Shown here: positions 60,449 through 64,000 of the stretch, one piece after another
Numbering within the stretch: the first letter of the stretch is position 1
Layout of the letters: every line of letters begins with the position of its first letter
Origin: Fictibacillus terranigra
GTDB lineage: Bacteria; Bacillota; Bacilli; Bacillales; Fictibacillaceae
Reading direction: 5' to 3'
Assembly (NCBI RefSeq): GCF_030412265.1
Contig: NZ_JAUHLN010000004.1
Location: 248,001 to 312,000, forward strand
Length of the DNA stretch: 64,000 bases
The notes under the pieces: generated by a model
The model's database searches: none
What the model saw: only the letters and a program-made list of their open reading frames with translations
Told to the model about the DNA's origin: nothing
Made by a program: the position numbers and the translations under genes

Positions 60449-62005
60449 TTAAAACACTTTTGTCGTCCAGTCTTCGCAGTTCCACACTTCAGTAACGACC
60501 TCACGGTAAAATTCCGGTTCGTGGGAGATCAGCAGGATGCTTCCTTTGTAGGCCTTTAACGCCCGTTTCAGTTCGTCCTTAGCATCGACATCCAAATGGT
60601 TGGTCGGCTCATCCAGAACAAGGAGGTTCGTTTCGTTATTGATCAGCTTGCAGAGCCGGACTTTTGCTTTTTCTCCTCCGCTGAGTACCTGTACTTTGCT
60701 TTCAATATGCTTGGTGGTCAGGCCGCATTTTGCGAGAGCGGCACGGACCTCATGCATGTTGAAAGAAGGAAACTCGCTCCAAACCTCGTCAATACACGTA
60801 TTATTGTTATTGCTTTTGATCTCCTGCTCAAAGTATCCGATATGCAGATATTCGCCTCGTTCCACAGAACCGGAGATCGGCTTGATTTCACCCAGAATAC
60901 TGCGAAGCAATGTTGTTTTTCCGATACCATTCGCTCCGACAAGCGCGATCTTTTGGCCCCGTTCCATTCTTAGGTCAAGCGGGCGGGATAACGGTTCGTC
61001 ATATCCAATTACGAGATTTTTTGTTTCAAAGATCATTTTTCCTGAGGTACGGGCTTCCTTGAAATTGAATTCAGGCTTTGGTTTTTCCTTGGCCAGCTCG
61101 ATGACCTCCATTTTATCCAGCTTTTTTTGGCGGGACATCGCCATGTTTCGAGTGGAAACACGAGCTTTATTTCTCGCAACAAAATCCTTCAGCTCGGAAA
61201 TTTCCTGCTGCTGGCGTTTGAAAGCTGCTTCCAGCTGCTGTTTTTTCGCTTCGTGAATATGCTGGAAGTTATTGTAGTCTCCTACATAGCGGTTAAGCTC
61301 TTGATTTTCCATGTGATAGATCAAGTTGATCACACTGTTCAAGAACGGAATATCATGCGAAATTAAAACAAATGCATTCTCATATTCCTGAAGGTAGCGC
61401 TTCAGCCACTCGATATGCTGTTCATCCAAGTAGTTCGTCGGCTCATCCAGCAAAAGGATCTCAGGCTTTTCAAGCAACAGCTTTGCCAAAAGAACCTTTG
61501 TACGCTGCCCGCCTGACAGGTCATGTACGTCACGGTCAAGGCCGATATCTTCTAGACCGAGTCCGCGAGCGATCTCTTCTACCTTTGCGTCAATTATATA
61601 AAAATCGTTATTTGTTAACGTGTCTTGAAGGACACCAACATCCTCCAAAAGTTTTTCTAGCTCTTCAGGTGTCGCTTCCCCCATTTTTTCGTACATGCCG
61701 TTCATTTCGTTTTCAACATCAAAAAGGTATTGAAACGCACTTTTCAGCACATCGCGAATGGTCATTCCCTGCTGAAGGACTGTGTGCTGATCAAGGTAGC
61801 CAACACGCACTTTTTTTGCCCATTCTACTTTACCTTCGTCTGGCTGCAGCTTGCCGGTGATAATGTTCATGAAGGTGGATTTTCCTTCACCATTTGCTCC
61901 GATCAATCCGATGTGTTCTCCTTTTAGGAGACGGAAGGAGACATCATTAAAAATCGCACGGTCACCAAAGCCGTGGCTTAAGTTTTTTACGGTTAAAACA
62001 CTCAT
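60449..62005 (-). CDS. yfmM: ABC-F family ATPase, YfmM-like
   Basis: A 518-residue soluble ABC-F protein with two ATPase domains and no membrane part. Walker A motifs are GANGEGKSTFMNII (about 36) and GANGIGKTTLLRSIL (about 355). Signatures are LSGGQRTKVLLAKLL and LSGGEKAKVRLCKLI, Walker B motifs ILLLDEPTNYLDEQ and LLVLDEPTNHLDVD. The interdomain linker (P-site tRNA interaction motif) spans about 240-320. It matches B. subtilis YfmM in length and along its sequence. ABC-F proteins bind the ribosomal E site to relieve stalling or protect against antibiotics. The start is the ATG after AAAAGGTGCATATAG. Confidence 0.94.
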   Translation of the reverse strand: MSVLTVKNLSHGFGDRAIFNDVSFRLLKGEHIGLIGANGEGKSTFMNIITGKLQPDEGKVEWAKKVRVGYLDQHTVLQQGMTIRDVLKSAFQYLFDVENEMNGMYEKMGEATPEELEKLLEDVGVLQDTLTNNDFYIIDAKVEEIARGLGLEDIGLDRDVHDLSGGQRTKVLLAKLLLEKPEILLLDEPTNYLDEQHIEWLKRYLQEYENAFVLISHDIPFLNSVINLIYHMENQELNRYVGDYNNFQHIHEAKKQQLEAAFKRQQQEISELKDFVARNKARVSTRNMAMSRQKKLDKMEVIELAKEKPKPEFNFKEARTSGKMIFETKNLVIGYDEPLSRPLDLRMERGQKIALVGANGIGKTTLLRSILGEIKPISGSVERGEYLHIGYFEQEIKSNNNNTCIDEVWSEFPSFNMHEVRAALAKCGLTTKHIESKVQVLSGGEKAKVRLCKLINNETNLLVLDEPTNHLDVDAKDELKRALKAYKGSILLISHEPEFYREVVTEVWNCEDWTTKVF

Positions 62006-62159
62006 CTATATGCACCTTTTCTTGTTTGTTAAGATCACCATTTGATTATAGTATTAATTGCAGGGAGAACTCAATCTTTATGGGGGAATTTACTAAGAAT
62101 GTTTCAAGCTGAAGTGAAATGGTAAAGTCCTCTTGAAATGATGGAAAAGGAGGAGCGGC

Positions 62160-62339
62160 ATGATGCATGATTACAGTGTGGTTCCCAATCAGGGGGAAAA
62201 CGGCTGGGTCGTCAAAATTCAAAATACAGCACCGAGCGGCACTTACTCAAGCCGGTCAGAAGCTATTGCACTTGCAAAAAATCAGCCGAGGAAGACAAAC
62301 CCAGCAGGCTGCTTGTTTAGGATACTGAGCTTAGAGTAG
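62160..62339 (+). CDS. DUF2188-like small protein
   Basis: A 59-residue protein whose pattern YSVVPNQGENGWVVKIQNTA then SSRSEAIALAKN matches the small DUF2188 family (a beta hairpin plus helix). AGGAGG at 62149-62154 sits 5 bases before this ATG and 8 before the second ATG at 62163, so either may be used. Family function unknown. A hairpin TTTTAACG/CGTTAAAA follows at about 62355. Confidence 0.75.
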   Translation: MMHDYSVVPNQGENGWVVKIQNTAPSGTYSSRSEAIALAKNQPRKTNPAGCLFRILSLE

Positions 62340-62380
62340 CAGAAGAGAAGCGATTTTAACGCAGAACGTTAAAAGGCATG

Positions 62381-62411
62381 AAAAAAGGAGCCTTGGGTCC
62401 AAGACTCCTTC
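62381..62411 (-). terminator. Terminator of the micropeptide array
   Basis: On the minus strand GAAGGAGTCTTGG pairs with CCAAGGCTCCTT, followed by T6. It closes the transcript carrying the three small peptide genes. Confidence 0.8.
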
Positions 62412-62468
62412 AATGTGTTGCGTTGTTCAACCTACGTGGTTTGATGCTTTTTTACTTATTGATTCGTA

Positions 62469-62567
62469 CTACAAAATACTCACTGCTTTATTCTGCTTCG
62501 GGTTCCCACTATTAGGTCCAGCTCTTGGTTCTTCGCAAGTTTCGGAACAAAAACTGTTCCGATTCAT
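62469..62567 (-). CDS. Micropeptide with EPR-GPNS core, copy 3
   Basis: A 32-residue peptide. Its core CSETCEEPRAGPNSG (residues 7-21) aligns with those of the two copies upstream. The tail is basic and polar (NPKQNKAVSIL). GGAGGGG lies 7 bases before the ATG. It has no signal peptide or membrane segment. It is the last gene before the terminator at 62381. Too short for routine gene finders. The aligned core, optimal ribosome-binding site and shared order argue that it is real; function unknown. Confidence 0.62.
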   Translation of the reverse strand: MNRNSFCSETCEEPRAGPNSGNPKQNKAVSIL

Positions 62568-62639
62568 GAGAGTTCCCCTCCGTTTGGCTCTGAATAGTGT
62601 TTTCACTCATTTAATCACAAATACAATTCAAACTCTGCT

Positions 62640-62726
62640 TTAAATCGCTCTTTCACACGTGCATTCACTATCTGGTCCATCTCTCGGATCATTGCAAGTT
62701 TCGGAACTGTAGACGTCCTTAACCAT
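62640..62726 (-). CDS. Micropeptide with EPR-GPNS core, copy 2
   Basis: A 28-residue peptide with core SSETCNDPRDGPDSECTCER (residues 7-26) containing three cysteines. A full AGGAGGT lies 6 bases before the ATG. The frame stays open upstream through an in-frame ATG that would add MQHYTPYTGGLQ; the same MQHY start precedes copy 1, so a 12-residue longer product is possible. Divergence from copy 1 leaves the PRDGP centre intact, which suggests selection on the peptide. Function unknown. Confidence 0.65.
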   Translation of the reverse strand: MVKDVYSSETCNDPRDGPDSECTCERAI

Positions 62727-62856
62727 TTGCAAACCTCCTGTATATGGCGTATAGTGTTGCATCTTGCCTCAAACATAGAGCTGATCTGTTCACACATCGT
62801 ACCTATTACTGCCTAAACGTCTTGCTTAGTCTTGCTTTACAAAAATATGAACCACG

Positions 62857-62946
62857 CTAATCTTTTATTCCTATTTCTGTGTTGCATTCACTATTCGGTC
62901 CATCTCTTGGCTCATTGGATGTTACGGAACGATTGTTCTTTCTCAT
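62857..62946 (-). CDS. Micropeptide with EPR-GPNS core, copy 1
   Basis: A 29-residue peptide, the first of three tandem paralogues. The core is RSVTSNEPRDGPNSECNTE (residues 6-24). GGAGGG lies 7 bases before the ATG. An upstream in-frame ATG gives the alternative start MQHYVTHMEGIE, like copy 2. It is 95 bases downstream of the methyltransferase gene on the same strand with no GC-rich terminator between, so the two may be co-transcribed. No known family is recognised. Confidence 0.65.
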   Translation of the reverse strand: MRKNNRSVTSNEPRDGPNSECNTEIGIKD

Positions 62947-63041
62947 CTCAATTCCCTCCATATGGGTGACATAGTGTTGCATGGTTTGTTTACCCCGTCT
63001 GAAAGAAATAAAACTTCATTTACAATAAAATTTTATAATTT

Positions 63042-63647
63042 TTACACTGGCTTGGCAGCTGTTACGATCACGGCATCCACAGGTCTCATGTTCTTCACGC
63101 TTGCGGAAATATGAGAAAAACCTGCCTCCTTTAAATAAAGGGAGATAATCCTTCCGATTTCTTTTGTAGTATCATCATCTGCTCCTTTTTCGTGTGGCTG
63201 AAGGGTAACAGCTATACGGGCCTGTTCCTTCATCAGACTCTTGATCTTTTTAAGATCCCCAATCGGATCCTTCCAGATGAAGATGGAATTTACGGTATAC
63301 ACGCCATCAAATTTCGGTGTGTGCTCATCGGCTGAAGTGATGGGACCTTCAAACAGCTCCACGCGTCCTTCTTTTATGAACGAATCGTTCCGTGATTCTG
63401 CTTGTTTCTTCATGACATGTGAAACATCATAGCCGACGATGCGGCAGGAGGGATAGTTGCTGCACACATATTCAATGCCTACACCCGGCCCATAACCCAC
63501 TTCCAGGAGACGGTCGCCCGCTCCCGGCTGCAGTGCAGAAATGGTCCATTCATTCAGTTCCTTGTTTTCGCTGGACATGATTTTTCCCGCAAGCTTACCG
63601 AGCAGACCCTCGGGTTTTTCAAATTGTTCGAAGATATTTTGCCTCAT
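63042..63647 (-). CDS. Class I SAM-dependent methyltransferase
   Basis: A 201-residue methyltransferase. The SAM-binding motif I is DRLLEVGYGPGVGIEYV (about residues 46-62), the acidic end of strand 2 is in RIVGYDVSHVMKKQA, and motif post-II is VELFEGPITSADEHTPKFDG. The C-terminal beta strands end ISASVKNMRPVDAVIVTA. It resembles UbiE-like small-molecule methyltransferases; substrate unknown. I start at the ATG at 63647, 8 bases after GGTGGGAG; a GTG at 63662 is in frame upstream. It is divergent from the MerR gene, with a CodY box between. The micropeptide genes lie downstream. Confidence 0.87.
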   Translation of the reverse strand: MRQNIFEQFEKPEGLLGKLAGKIMSSENKELNEWTISALQPGAGDRLLEVGYGPGVGIEYVCSNYPSCRIVGYDVSHVMKKQAESRNDSFIKEGRVELFEGPITSADEHTPKFDGVYTVNSIFIWKDPIGDLKKIKSLMKEQARIAVTLQPHEKGADDDTTKEIGRIISLYLKEAGFSHISASVKNMRPVDAVIVTAAKPV

Positions 63648-63746
63648 ATGGTACACTCCCACCCTTTGGATTCTATAATCAATGTACCCGAAAAAAGGGG
63701 AATCAAAAAGCTGATATTATAAGCTGCTGTCAGCCATTCGAAAAAA

Positions 63747-63761
63747 TATTTTCAGAAAATT
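63747..63761. promoter_or_regulatory. CodY box between the methyltransferase and MerR genes
   Basis: TATTTTCAGAAAATT differs from the CodY consensus by one base. It lies 12 bases upstream of the MerR promoter's -35 and about 100 bases before the divergent methyltransferase start. Confidence 0.65.
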
Positions 63762-63772
63762 TCATTAAATGC

Positions 63773-63803
63773 TTGAACCTTACGTAACGGCATGTTGTAC
63801 AGT
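63773..63803 (+). promoter_or_regulatory. MerR-type promoter with 19-bp spacer
   Basis: TTGAAC, then a 19-base spacer with the dyad CTTACGTAACG, then TACAGT. The overlong spacer with a dyad is the hallmark of MerR-activated promoters, so the following regulator probably controls itself. Confidence 0.75.
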
Positions 63804-63846
63804 AGAGTTGCCGGCAGTAAGCTTGCGAAAAAGGAAGGAGCTGATT

Positions 63847-64000
63847 ATGGAGGGAAAATATAAGATTGGTGAACTGGCCGCAGTAGCAGGGCTGACCGTT
63901 CGTACGCTGCGATATTATGATCAAATTGATTTATTATCACCATCAGCGCATTCTGGCTCAGGGCACAGGCTATATGATAAGAATGATTTTTTTCGCCTGC
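63847..64000 (+). CDS. MerR-family transcriptional regulator (partial, N-terminal part)
   Basis: The first 51 codons of a MerR regulator; the window ends inside it. The DNA-binding motif YKIGELAAVAGLTVRTLRYY, then DQIDLLSPSAHSGSGHRLYD, is the canonical HTH and first wing. AAGGAGC precedes the ATG. Its promoter has the 19-bp spacer of self-activated MerR systems. The effector domain that would tell a multidrug (BmrR/Mta/TipA) from a metal or redox type is outside the window. Confidence 0.92.
   Translation, partial: MEGKYKIGELAAVAGLTVRTLRYYDQIDLLSPSAHSGSGHRLYDKNDFFRL

Follow-up and report, generated by a model that had tools for sequence, protein, structure and literature searches.

Short leader peptides such as ErmCL and TnaC stall the ribosome in response to a signal and precede the gene that they regulate. 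Ribosomes are also arrested by RAPP/RAGP-like peptides, among them SecM, ApcA, ApdA/ApdP and the RQH family, and the chemistry of this arrest has been explained (PMC10951233). The Arg of RAP(P/G) motifs is described as irreplaceable, an Ala to Asp change as partly permissive in ApdA and ApdP, and the motif alone as insufficient for arrest; RAGP partly supports ApdP arrest in vivo and gives mainly full-length product in vitro (PMC12992588). RDGP figures among the RAPP-like query motifs, and stalling with Gly in the P site has been shown for the B. subtilis RAGP protein YwcI (PMC10987492). The passages on RAPP/RAGP variants do not include a test of RDGP itself (PMC12992588, PMC10987492). Lastly, SR1/SR1P of B. 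subtilis is described as a dual-function sRNA, a small RNA that also has a mini-ORF (PMC8501984, PMC8152036).

The window analysed here, 64,000 nucleotides of Fictibacillus terranigra, carries on its minus strand a tandem array of three mini-ORFs, of 29, 28 and 32 codons, between a methyltransferase gene and a terminator hairpin. The original prediction had described this arrangement, with a Shine-Dalgarno (SD) sequence before each ATG (GGAGGG, AGGAGGT and GGAGGGG) and a core common to the three peptides. We confirmed it from the window sequence, with SD to ATG spacings of 7, 6 and 7 nt and the shared core (E/D)PR(D/A)GP. The mini-ORFs and the genes on either side are:

62857..62946, minus strand: mini-ORF 1, ATG at 62946, 29 aa, core NEPRDGPNSEC, SD GGAGGG at 62959-62954
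62640..62726, minus strand: mini-ORF 2, 28 aa, core NDPRDGPDSEC, SD AGGAGGT at 62739-62733
62469..62567, minus strand: mini-ORF 3, 32 aa, core EEPRAGPNSGN, SD GGAGGGG at 62581-62575
63042..63647, minus strand: class I SAM methyltransferase, Pfam Methyltransf_25/11 above cut-off, directly upstream of the array in 7/7 array genomes
62160-62339, plus strand: DUF2188 protein of 59 aa, on the opposite strand between the array and an ABC-F gene

The other two peptides are 52% and 46% identical to that of unit 1. The statement that no family with this core has been described held at cut-off in Pfam, NCBIfam and Rfam: none of the three peptides scored above a Pfam/NCBIfam cut-off (best DUF7715, 13.5 bits against a cut-off of 27), and in window positions 61900-64000 Rfam gave nothing at gathering score, its three matches (up to E 5) reaching 12-19 bits against 44-50. 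The core strings DPRDGP, EPRDGP, NEPRDG and CEEPRDGP were not found in the literature searched, and the Fictibacillus small RNA literature, judged by titles, holds nothing on this array. The array seems to be an apparently undescribed tandem regulatory RNA module.

By its sequence, the core tail R-(D/A)-G-P, whose Pro is residue 17 or 18 and lies 1-14 residues from the end of the peptide, belongs to the published class of RAPP/RAGP-like ribosome-arrest motifs. The likeness to SecM, ApcA, ApdA/ApdP and the RQH family, as the cited passages describe them, consists of the invariant Arg, a small residue or Asp at position 2, Gly-Pro at positions 3-4, and RNA structure around the gene (PMC12992588, PMC10987492, PMC10951233). 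The pattern R[ADGS][GP]P does not occur in the 16,844 residues of the window's stop-to-stop frames of at least 250 aa. Arrest at the mini-ORF cores is a testable hypothesis, a lead and not a demonstration. Unlike the SecM- and RQH-type peptides, those of the array have no N-terminal signal sequence or transmembrane segment (no hydrophobic segment or localisation signal was found in four peptides, whose best 15-aa Kyte-Doolittle means are -1.07 to -0.85). Only 16-17 residues precede the Pro of the motif, the copies are three in tandem, and no sec/yidC-type gene would be co-transcribed downstream, a terminator hairpin following the array in 7/7 genomes. Because there is neither a localisation signal nor a gene before the terminator, we do not file the array with SecM or the RQH family. 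With ErmCL and TnaC it has in common a mini-ORF of similar length, a stall motif and a hairpin-rich RNA; unlike these leaders, it has no gene after the mini-ORFs within the predicted transcript. The pairing of small RNA and mini-ORF recalls SR1/SR1P, from whose published description the array differs in its three repeated hairpin-ORF modules and its sigma-B-type promoter motif (PMC8501984, PMC8152036). At the sequence level, it has a promoter and a terminator of its own, as in a dual-function sRNA. Our preferred reading, to which we give a probability of about 0.38, is a dual RNA, induced by stress, whose structured minigenes stand in tandem and are possibly of the arrest type.

Searching related genomes with a profile, as had been proposed, recovered the array beyond chance: the peptide profile finds it in 6/7 genomes of the genus and in 7/34 of the family. 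The seventh carrier, G033, belongs to another genus and has a single copy. The carriers within the genus are clade A (this genome, G000, with G002 and G006) and clade B (G003, G004 and G005). Together the seven genomes supply a set of 20 units, 16 with an intact frame and four that are frame-broken or start-less. A profile search of the genome's own 5 Mb gave no fourth copy, the further rows (E 1.8 and 7.9) being at chance level. In an order sample of 397 genomes the peptide profile matched three, one of them weakly, and the RNA model also matched three, one of them by chance, under stricter filters that lose weak matches; a class sample gave 2/398, one weak. The convincing matches in these evenly drawn samples are members of the genus only. 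The weak distant matches L060 and L065 were judged to be chance after reading their sequences, and L083 from its result row, which has a 347-aa open frame. A dispersed or mobile repeat was rejected: the genome has three copies, and collections of 72,556 plasmids and 50,697 phages, from which near relatives of the window's genome may be missing, gave no match; the only viral-contig pattern match (L082) lies inside an ORF that by eye reads as unrelated. In G004 (L038, plus strand), units 3 and 4 lie at 2560-2674 and 2761-2871; the fourth copy is decaying, and the 3' half of unit 3 resembles unit 2, from which it looks copied. We infer a recent internal duplication and gene conversion in this array.

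The DNA around the cores had been described as diverged. This is not simply so, since complementary arms, CACTAT on the 5' side and ATAGTG on the 3' side in most units, flank the units. In the RNA, CACUAU stands upstream of the SD (as GCAaCACUAU in unit 1 and in G033) and AUAGUG (AUAGUGaaUGC) just after the core, with variants in some copies, clade B unit 2 among them. Each unit is an RNA hairpin of about 105 nt that encloses the start codon and the core, and single units, folded individually, give long hairpins of similar plan. Those of this genome are:

62877..62987, minus strand: hairpin of unit 1, outer stem UGCA-a-CACUAU / AUAGUG-aa-UGCA, 130.7 bits (in the model), fold z -2.74, stem formed in the full-transcript fold
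62654..62765, minus strand: hairpin of unit 2, 86.4 bits (in the model), fold z -2.14, outer stem formed in the full-transcript fold
62501..62603, minus strand: hairpin of unit 3, lacking the UGCA of the outer stem, 41.2 bits, E 1.4e-9 (outside the model), fold z -1.17

A covariance model built from 10 units recovers 20/20 units across the seven genomes, among them the ten that were not used to build it. On the alignment fitted to this model, which leans towards structure, the paired share of cells is 88.9%; sliding lowers it to 30-36%, and shuffles give 85.5% (20 units, 18 distinct rows). Double-changed cells number 20 against 8.7 in shuffles and the covariation score is 0.164 against 0.118, with 0/500 shuffles as high in either case, and the measure of further pair types is ordinary (98/500). 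The 5' and 3' arms of a unit also pair better with each other than permuted arms do (15/20,000), a statistic that, like the covariation shuffles, ignores relatedness. At columns 12-108 the stem pairs C with G in 14 rows and U with A in 4. The 5' arm of G004 unit 3 has a C to U change that matches the 3' half, which we read as a possible compensation after gene conversion. An A-U pair at columns 35-87 of G004 unit 4 was rejected as SD-core compensation: in the sister copies column 35 is already an A, unpaired opposite C, so the change is one-sided.

Relative to synonymous recoding, hairpin stability is unremarkable (16 units, z -1.82 to +1.13), 5/6 unit 2 sequences being less stable than their recoded mean; the case for the hairpin therefore rests on the arms and the covariation, not on energy. 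Shuffling the upstream arm clearly weakens the unit 1 and G033 hairpins. From a plain MAFFT alignment, RNAalifold obtained just -4.68 kcal/mol and compensation in 2/13 pairs. In full-transcript folds the outer stem (at least 5 expected pairs) forms in 18/20 units, the four broken ones included; the exceptions are the unit 3 copies of this genome and G006. The same folds pair the unit 1 AUG with a probability of at least 0.94 in 6/6 array-bearing genus genomes and leave the first three bases of its SD mostly unpaired (at most 0.16). The AUG of G033 is unpaired, and so are, in clade A unit 2, the first two bases of the start codon. With the unit 1 SD mostly free and these start codons wholly or largely open, simple start gating is not general. 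Two other candidates were rejected: a true start at an in-frame ATG further upstream (MQHY...), which neither unit 3 nor clade B unit 2 has, and a CsrA-type GGA platform, whose second GGA is replaced by GGG in G033.

These hairpins could be all that matters: a purely non-coding regulatory RNA, its three tandem hairpins forming a protein- or sRNA-binding platform and its ORF-like look a by-product, is a possible if doubtful alternative. The frames speak against it. The coding-frame score of 842 was reached by just 9/3000 column shuffles (12 distinct intact units), the other two frames scoring -348 and -306; to the end of the core, the paralogue ORFs measure either 51 or 54 nt, a difference of 3 nt; SD and ATG are present in 16/16 intact units, including G033 with its different spacing; and R-(D/A)-G-P is kept in 16/16 intact units, changes in the Arg codon being confined to units that lack an intact frame (Lys in 2/4 of the frame-broken or start-less ones). 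Translation of the mini-ORFs is likely. To this extent the peptide-level selection claimed by the original prediction stands, although the RNA feature accounts for part of the conservation.

That part is seen where the frame has been lost. Broken frames, which had been named in advance as a sign against the prediction, are partly present, 4/20 units having a broken frame or no start codon. In clade B unit 3, a one-base break lies between ATG and core in 3/3 genomes and the hairpin is kept, and the start-less G004 unit 4 retains its outer stem, as a non-coding RNA would have it. Among G003, G004 and G005, the frame-broken unit 3 has 8-11 differences in 92 nt, the preceding spacer has 13-23 in 89-90 nt, and 23-41% of methyltransferase fourfold sites differ. 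The constraint outlasts frame loss, and in the folds the outer stem is kept in the four frame-broken or start-less copies. Conservation of the 3' non-coding motifs across genera also fits a non-coding RNA, as does the behaviour of unit 1. The methyltransferase differs at 62-70% of fourfold sites between clade A and clade B, which is saturated, and over codons 1-17 of unit 1 the clades have 0/7 fourfold differences, no synonymous change and 1-3 non-synonymous codon changes. With clades this saturated, the lack of synonymous change in unit 1 indicates nucleotide-level constraint. Unit 2 is coding-like, with 4-6 synonymous versus 1-3 non-synonymous codons between the clades.

The coding signal and the strong SDs, together with the occurrence of array and methyltransferase in the same 7/34 genomes, could also reflect a stress-induced small-protein operon, in which three cytoplasmic paralogues have their own function, such as binding the methyltransferase or another protein, and the hairpins merely tune translation. 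We consider this unlikely: in clade B (3/6 array-bearing genus genomes), a stop one residue beyond the core shortens unit 1 to 18 aa, and these three genomes also have the broken unit 3 frame; peptide C-termini vary in length and sequence; and the absence of synonymous change in unit 1 does not suit a protein-only constraint. Since clade B unit 1 ends one residue after the core, the post-core part is dispensable there. On balance, it is probable that constraint acts on one DNA stretch at the levels of structure and code alike, with RNA and peptide both under selection in an autonomous transcript.

The neighbouring genes bear on the roles first proposed for the peptides. Methyltransferase orthologues (at least 54% identity) occur in exactly the 7 array-bearing genomes out of 34, and three further genomes with 38-44% identical methyltransferases have no array in a whole-genome profile search; a scan of the genome contigs with the methyltransferase gave 2 loci. 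Small tandem genes adjoining a methyltransferase would suit a secreted signalling peptide or RiPP precursor, which we nevertheless regard as very improbable. The missing hydrophobic stretch disfavours the secreted-signal role, and the RiPP precursor, toxin and metal-binding roles found no positive evidence, the Cys residues not being conserved. Nor did the matches listed for the three neighbour proteins scanned (methyltransferase, DUF2188 and ABC-F) include any family of peptide receptors or maturases that passed its cut-off. The ABC-F ATPase gene beyond the array carries the Pfam label ABC_tran, is of the ribosomal-protection type and not an exporter according to NCBIfam, and has its own promoter-like site. 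The array as a leader of this downstream gene was rejected: the terminator intervenes, and no ABC-F is found among the frames above 100 aa in the 5.5-kb G033 locus.

The signals that would delimit the transcript, and two motifs near its 3' end, are:

62990..63014, minus strand: sigma-B-type promoter motif GTTTTA-N13-GGGTAA, sole such match in the window (0.09 expected, with a pattern drawn up after the sites had been seen)
62381..62410, minus strand: strong intrinsic terminator, GGAGTCTTGGACCCAAGGCTCC-T6, recognised by eye and as a 3' stem in full-transcript folds in 7/7 genomes
62426..62442, minus strand: 3' non-coding motif AAACCACGTAGGTTGAA, with one base varying in 6/6 genus arrays, recognisable in G033 as TAATCAAGTAAGTTGAA
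62462-62472, minus strand: 3' motif TGTAGTACGAA, overlapping the stop of mini-ORF 3, conserved into another genus

The sigma-B consensus is GTTT-N13/14-GGGWA, and GTTTT(A/G)-N13-GGG(A/T)A(A/C) precedes unit 1 with identical spacing in 7/7 genomes. The genome has a sigma-B gene, above cut-off, and GTTTGA-N14-GGGTA lies 42 nt upstream of a putative rsbV ORF, which we take to be rsbV by gene order. For the sigB operon, the fixed-spacing promoter pattern found nothing and a looser one gave 2 sites (0.33 expected). The array looks like a stress-type RNA that may be under sigma-B control, and we infer that its 5' end lies about at the first base pairs of hairpin 1. At the other end, the terminator loop varies at one base across 6/6 genus genomes and a different hairpin stands in G033; a consensus terminator scan did not list the terminator at 62381..62410. 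The two 3' motifs, ACGAA after TGTA or the like and AA.CA.GTA.GTTGAA, are kept, also in G033, and are possibly an sRNA seed or a protein site.

The dual RNA of structured minigenes would then work as follows. A transcript of about 600 nt would run from the sigma-B-like promoter motif to its own terminator (~62983 to 62381) and carry three tandem copies of one module, a hairpin of ~105 nt enclosing SD, start codon and a mini-ORF whose conserved peptide part ends in R-(D/A)-G-P at residue 17-18. It would be made under general stress, presumably starting just before hairpin 1, and the hairpins are predicted to modulate initiation, unevenly between units. Ribosomes that initiate would pause after 16-17 residues, the P site occupied by Gly and the A site by Pro, as the motif and the published mutagenesis of RAGP/RAPP-like arrest peptides suggest. 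A ribosome paused on the 3' arm of the outer stem could keep the hairpin open, and the RNA might be protected or ribosomes sequestered. Pausing and these consequences, taken jointly, are tentative. A stronger version is less likely still, namely a stress-induced ribosome-trapping RNA in which each hairpin minigene admits a ribosome and locks it at R-(D/A)-G-P. Such an RNA would act in trans, as a ribosome store or a sensor of the translation state, and not in cis, which would make it an arrest-peptide device that lacks a target gene. Should the mini-ORFs stall ribosomes, arrest motifs would work outside the usual arrangement of sensor peptide and downstream gene; even without stalling, a tandem module of apparently undescribed type stands behind a sigma-B-type promoter motif. 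The array is of greater interest as a structured RNA in which minigenes are embedded than as a set of plain peptides, and its sister copies with and without an intact frame are a natural experiment that could separate structure from code.

The methyltransferase gene may share sigma-B-type control with the array, with a weaker -35. Three smaller observations concern the flanks. The start of the DUF2188 protein appears deleted in G004, as seen in the locus alignment only. The segment at window positions 63769-63999 (plus strand), which runs off the window, looks like the start of what we take to be a MerR-type regulator, divergent from the methyltransferase gene. A GGGTACATT element lies upstream of the methyltransferase gene at window positions 63681-63689 (minus strand) and is also present in G002 and G003.
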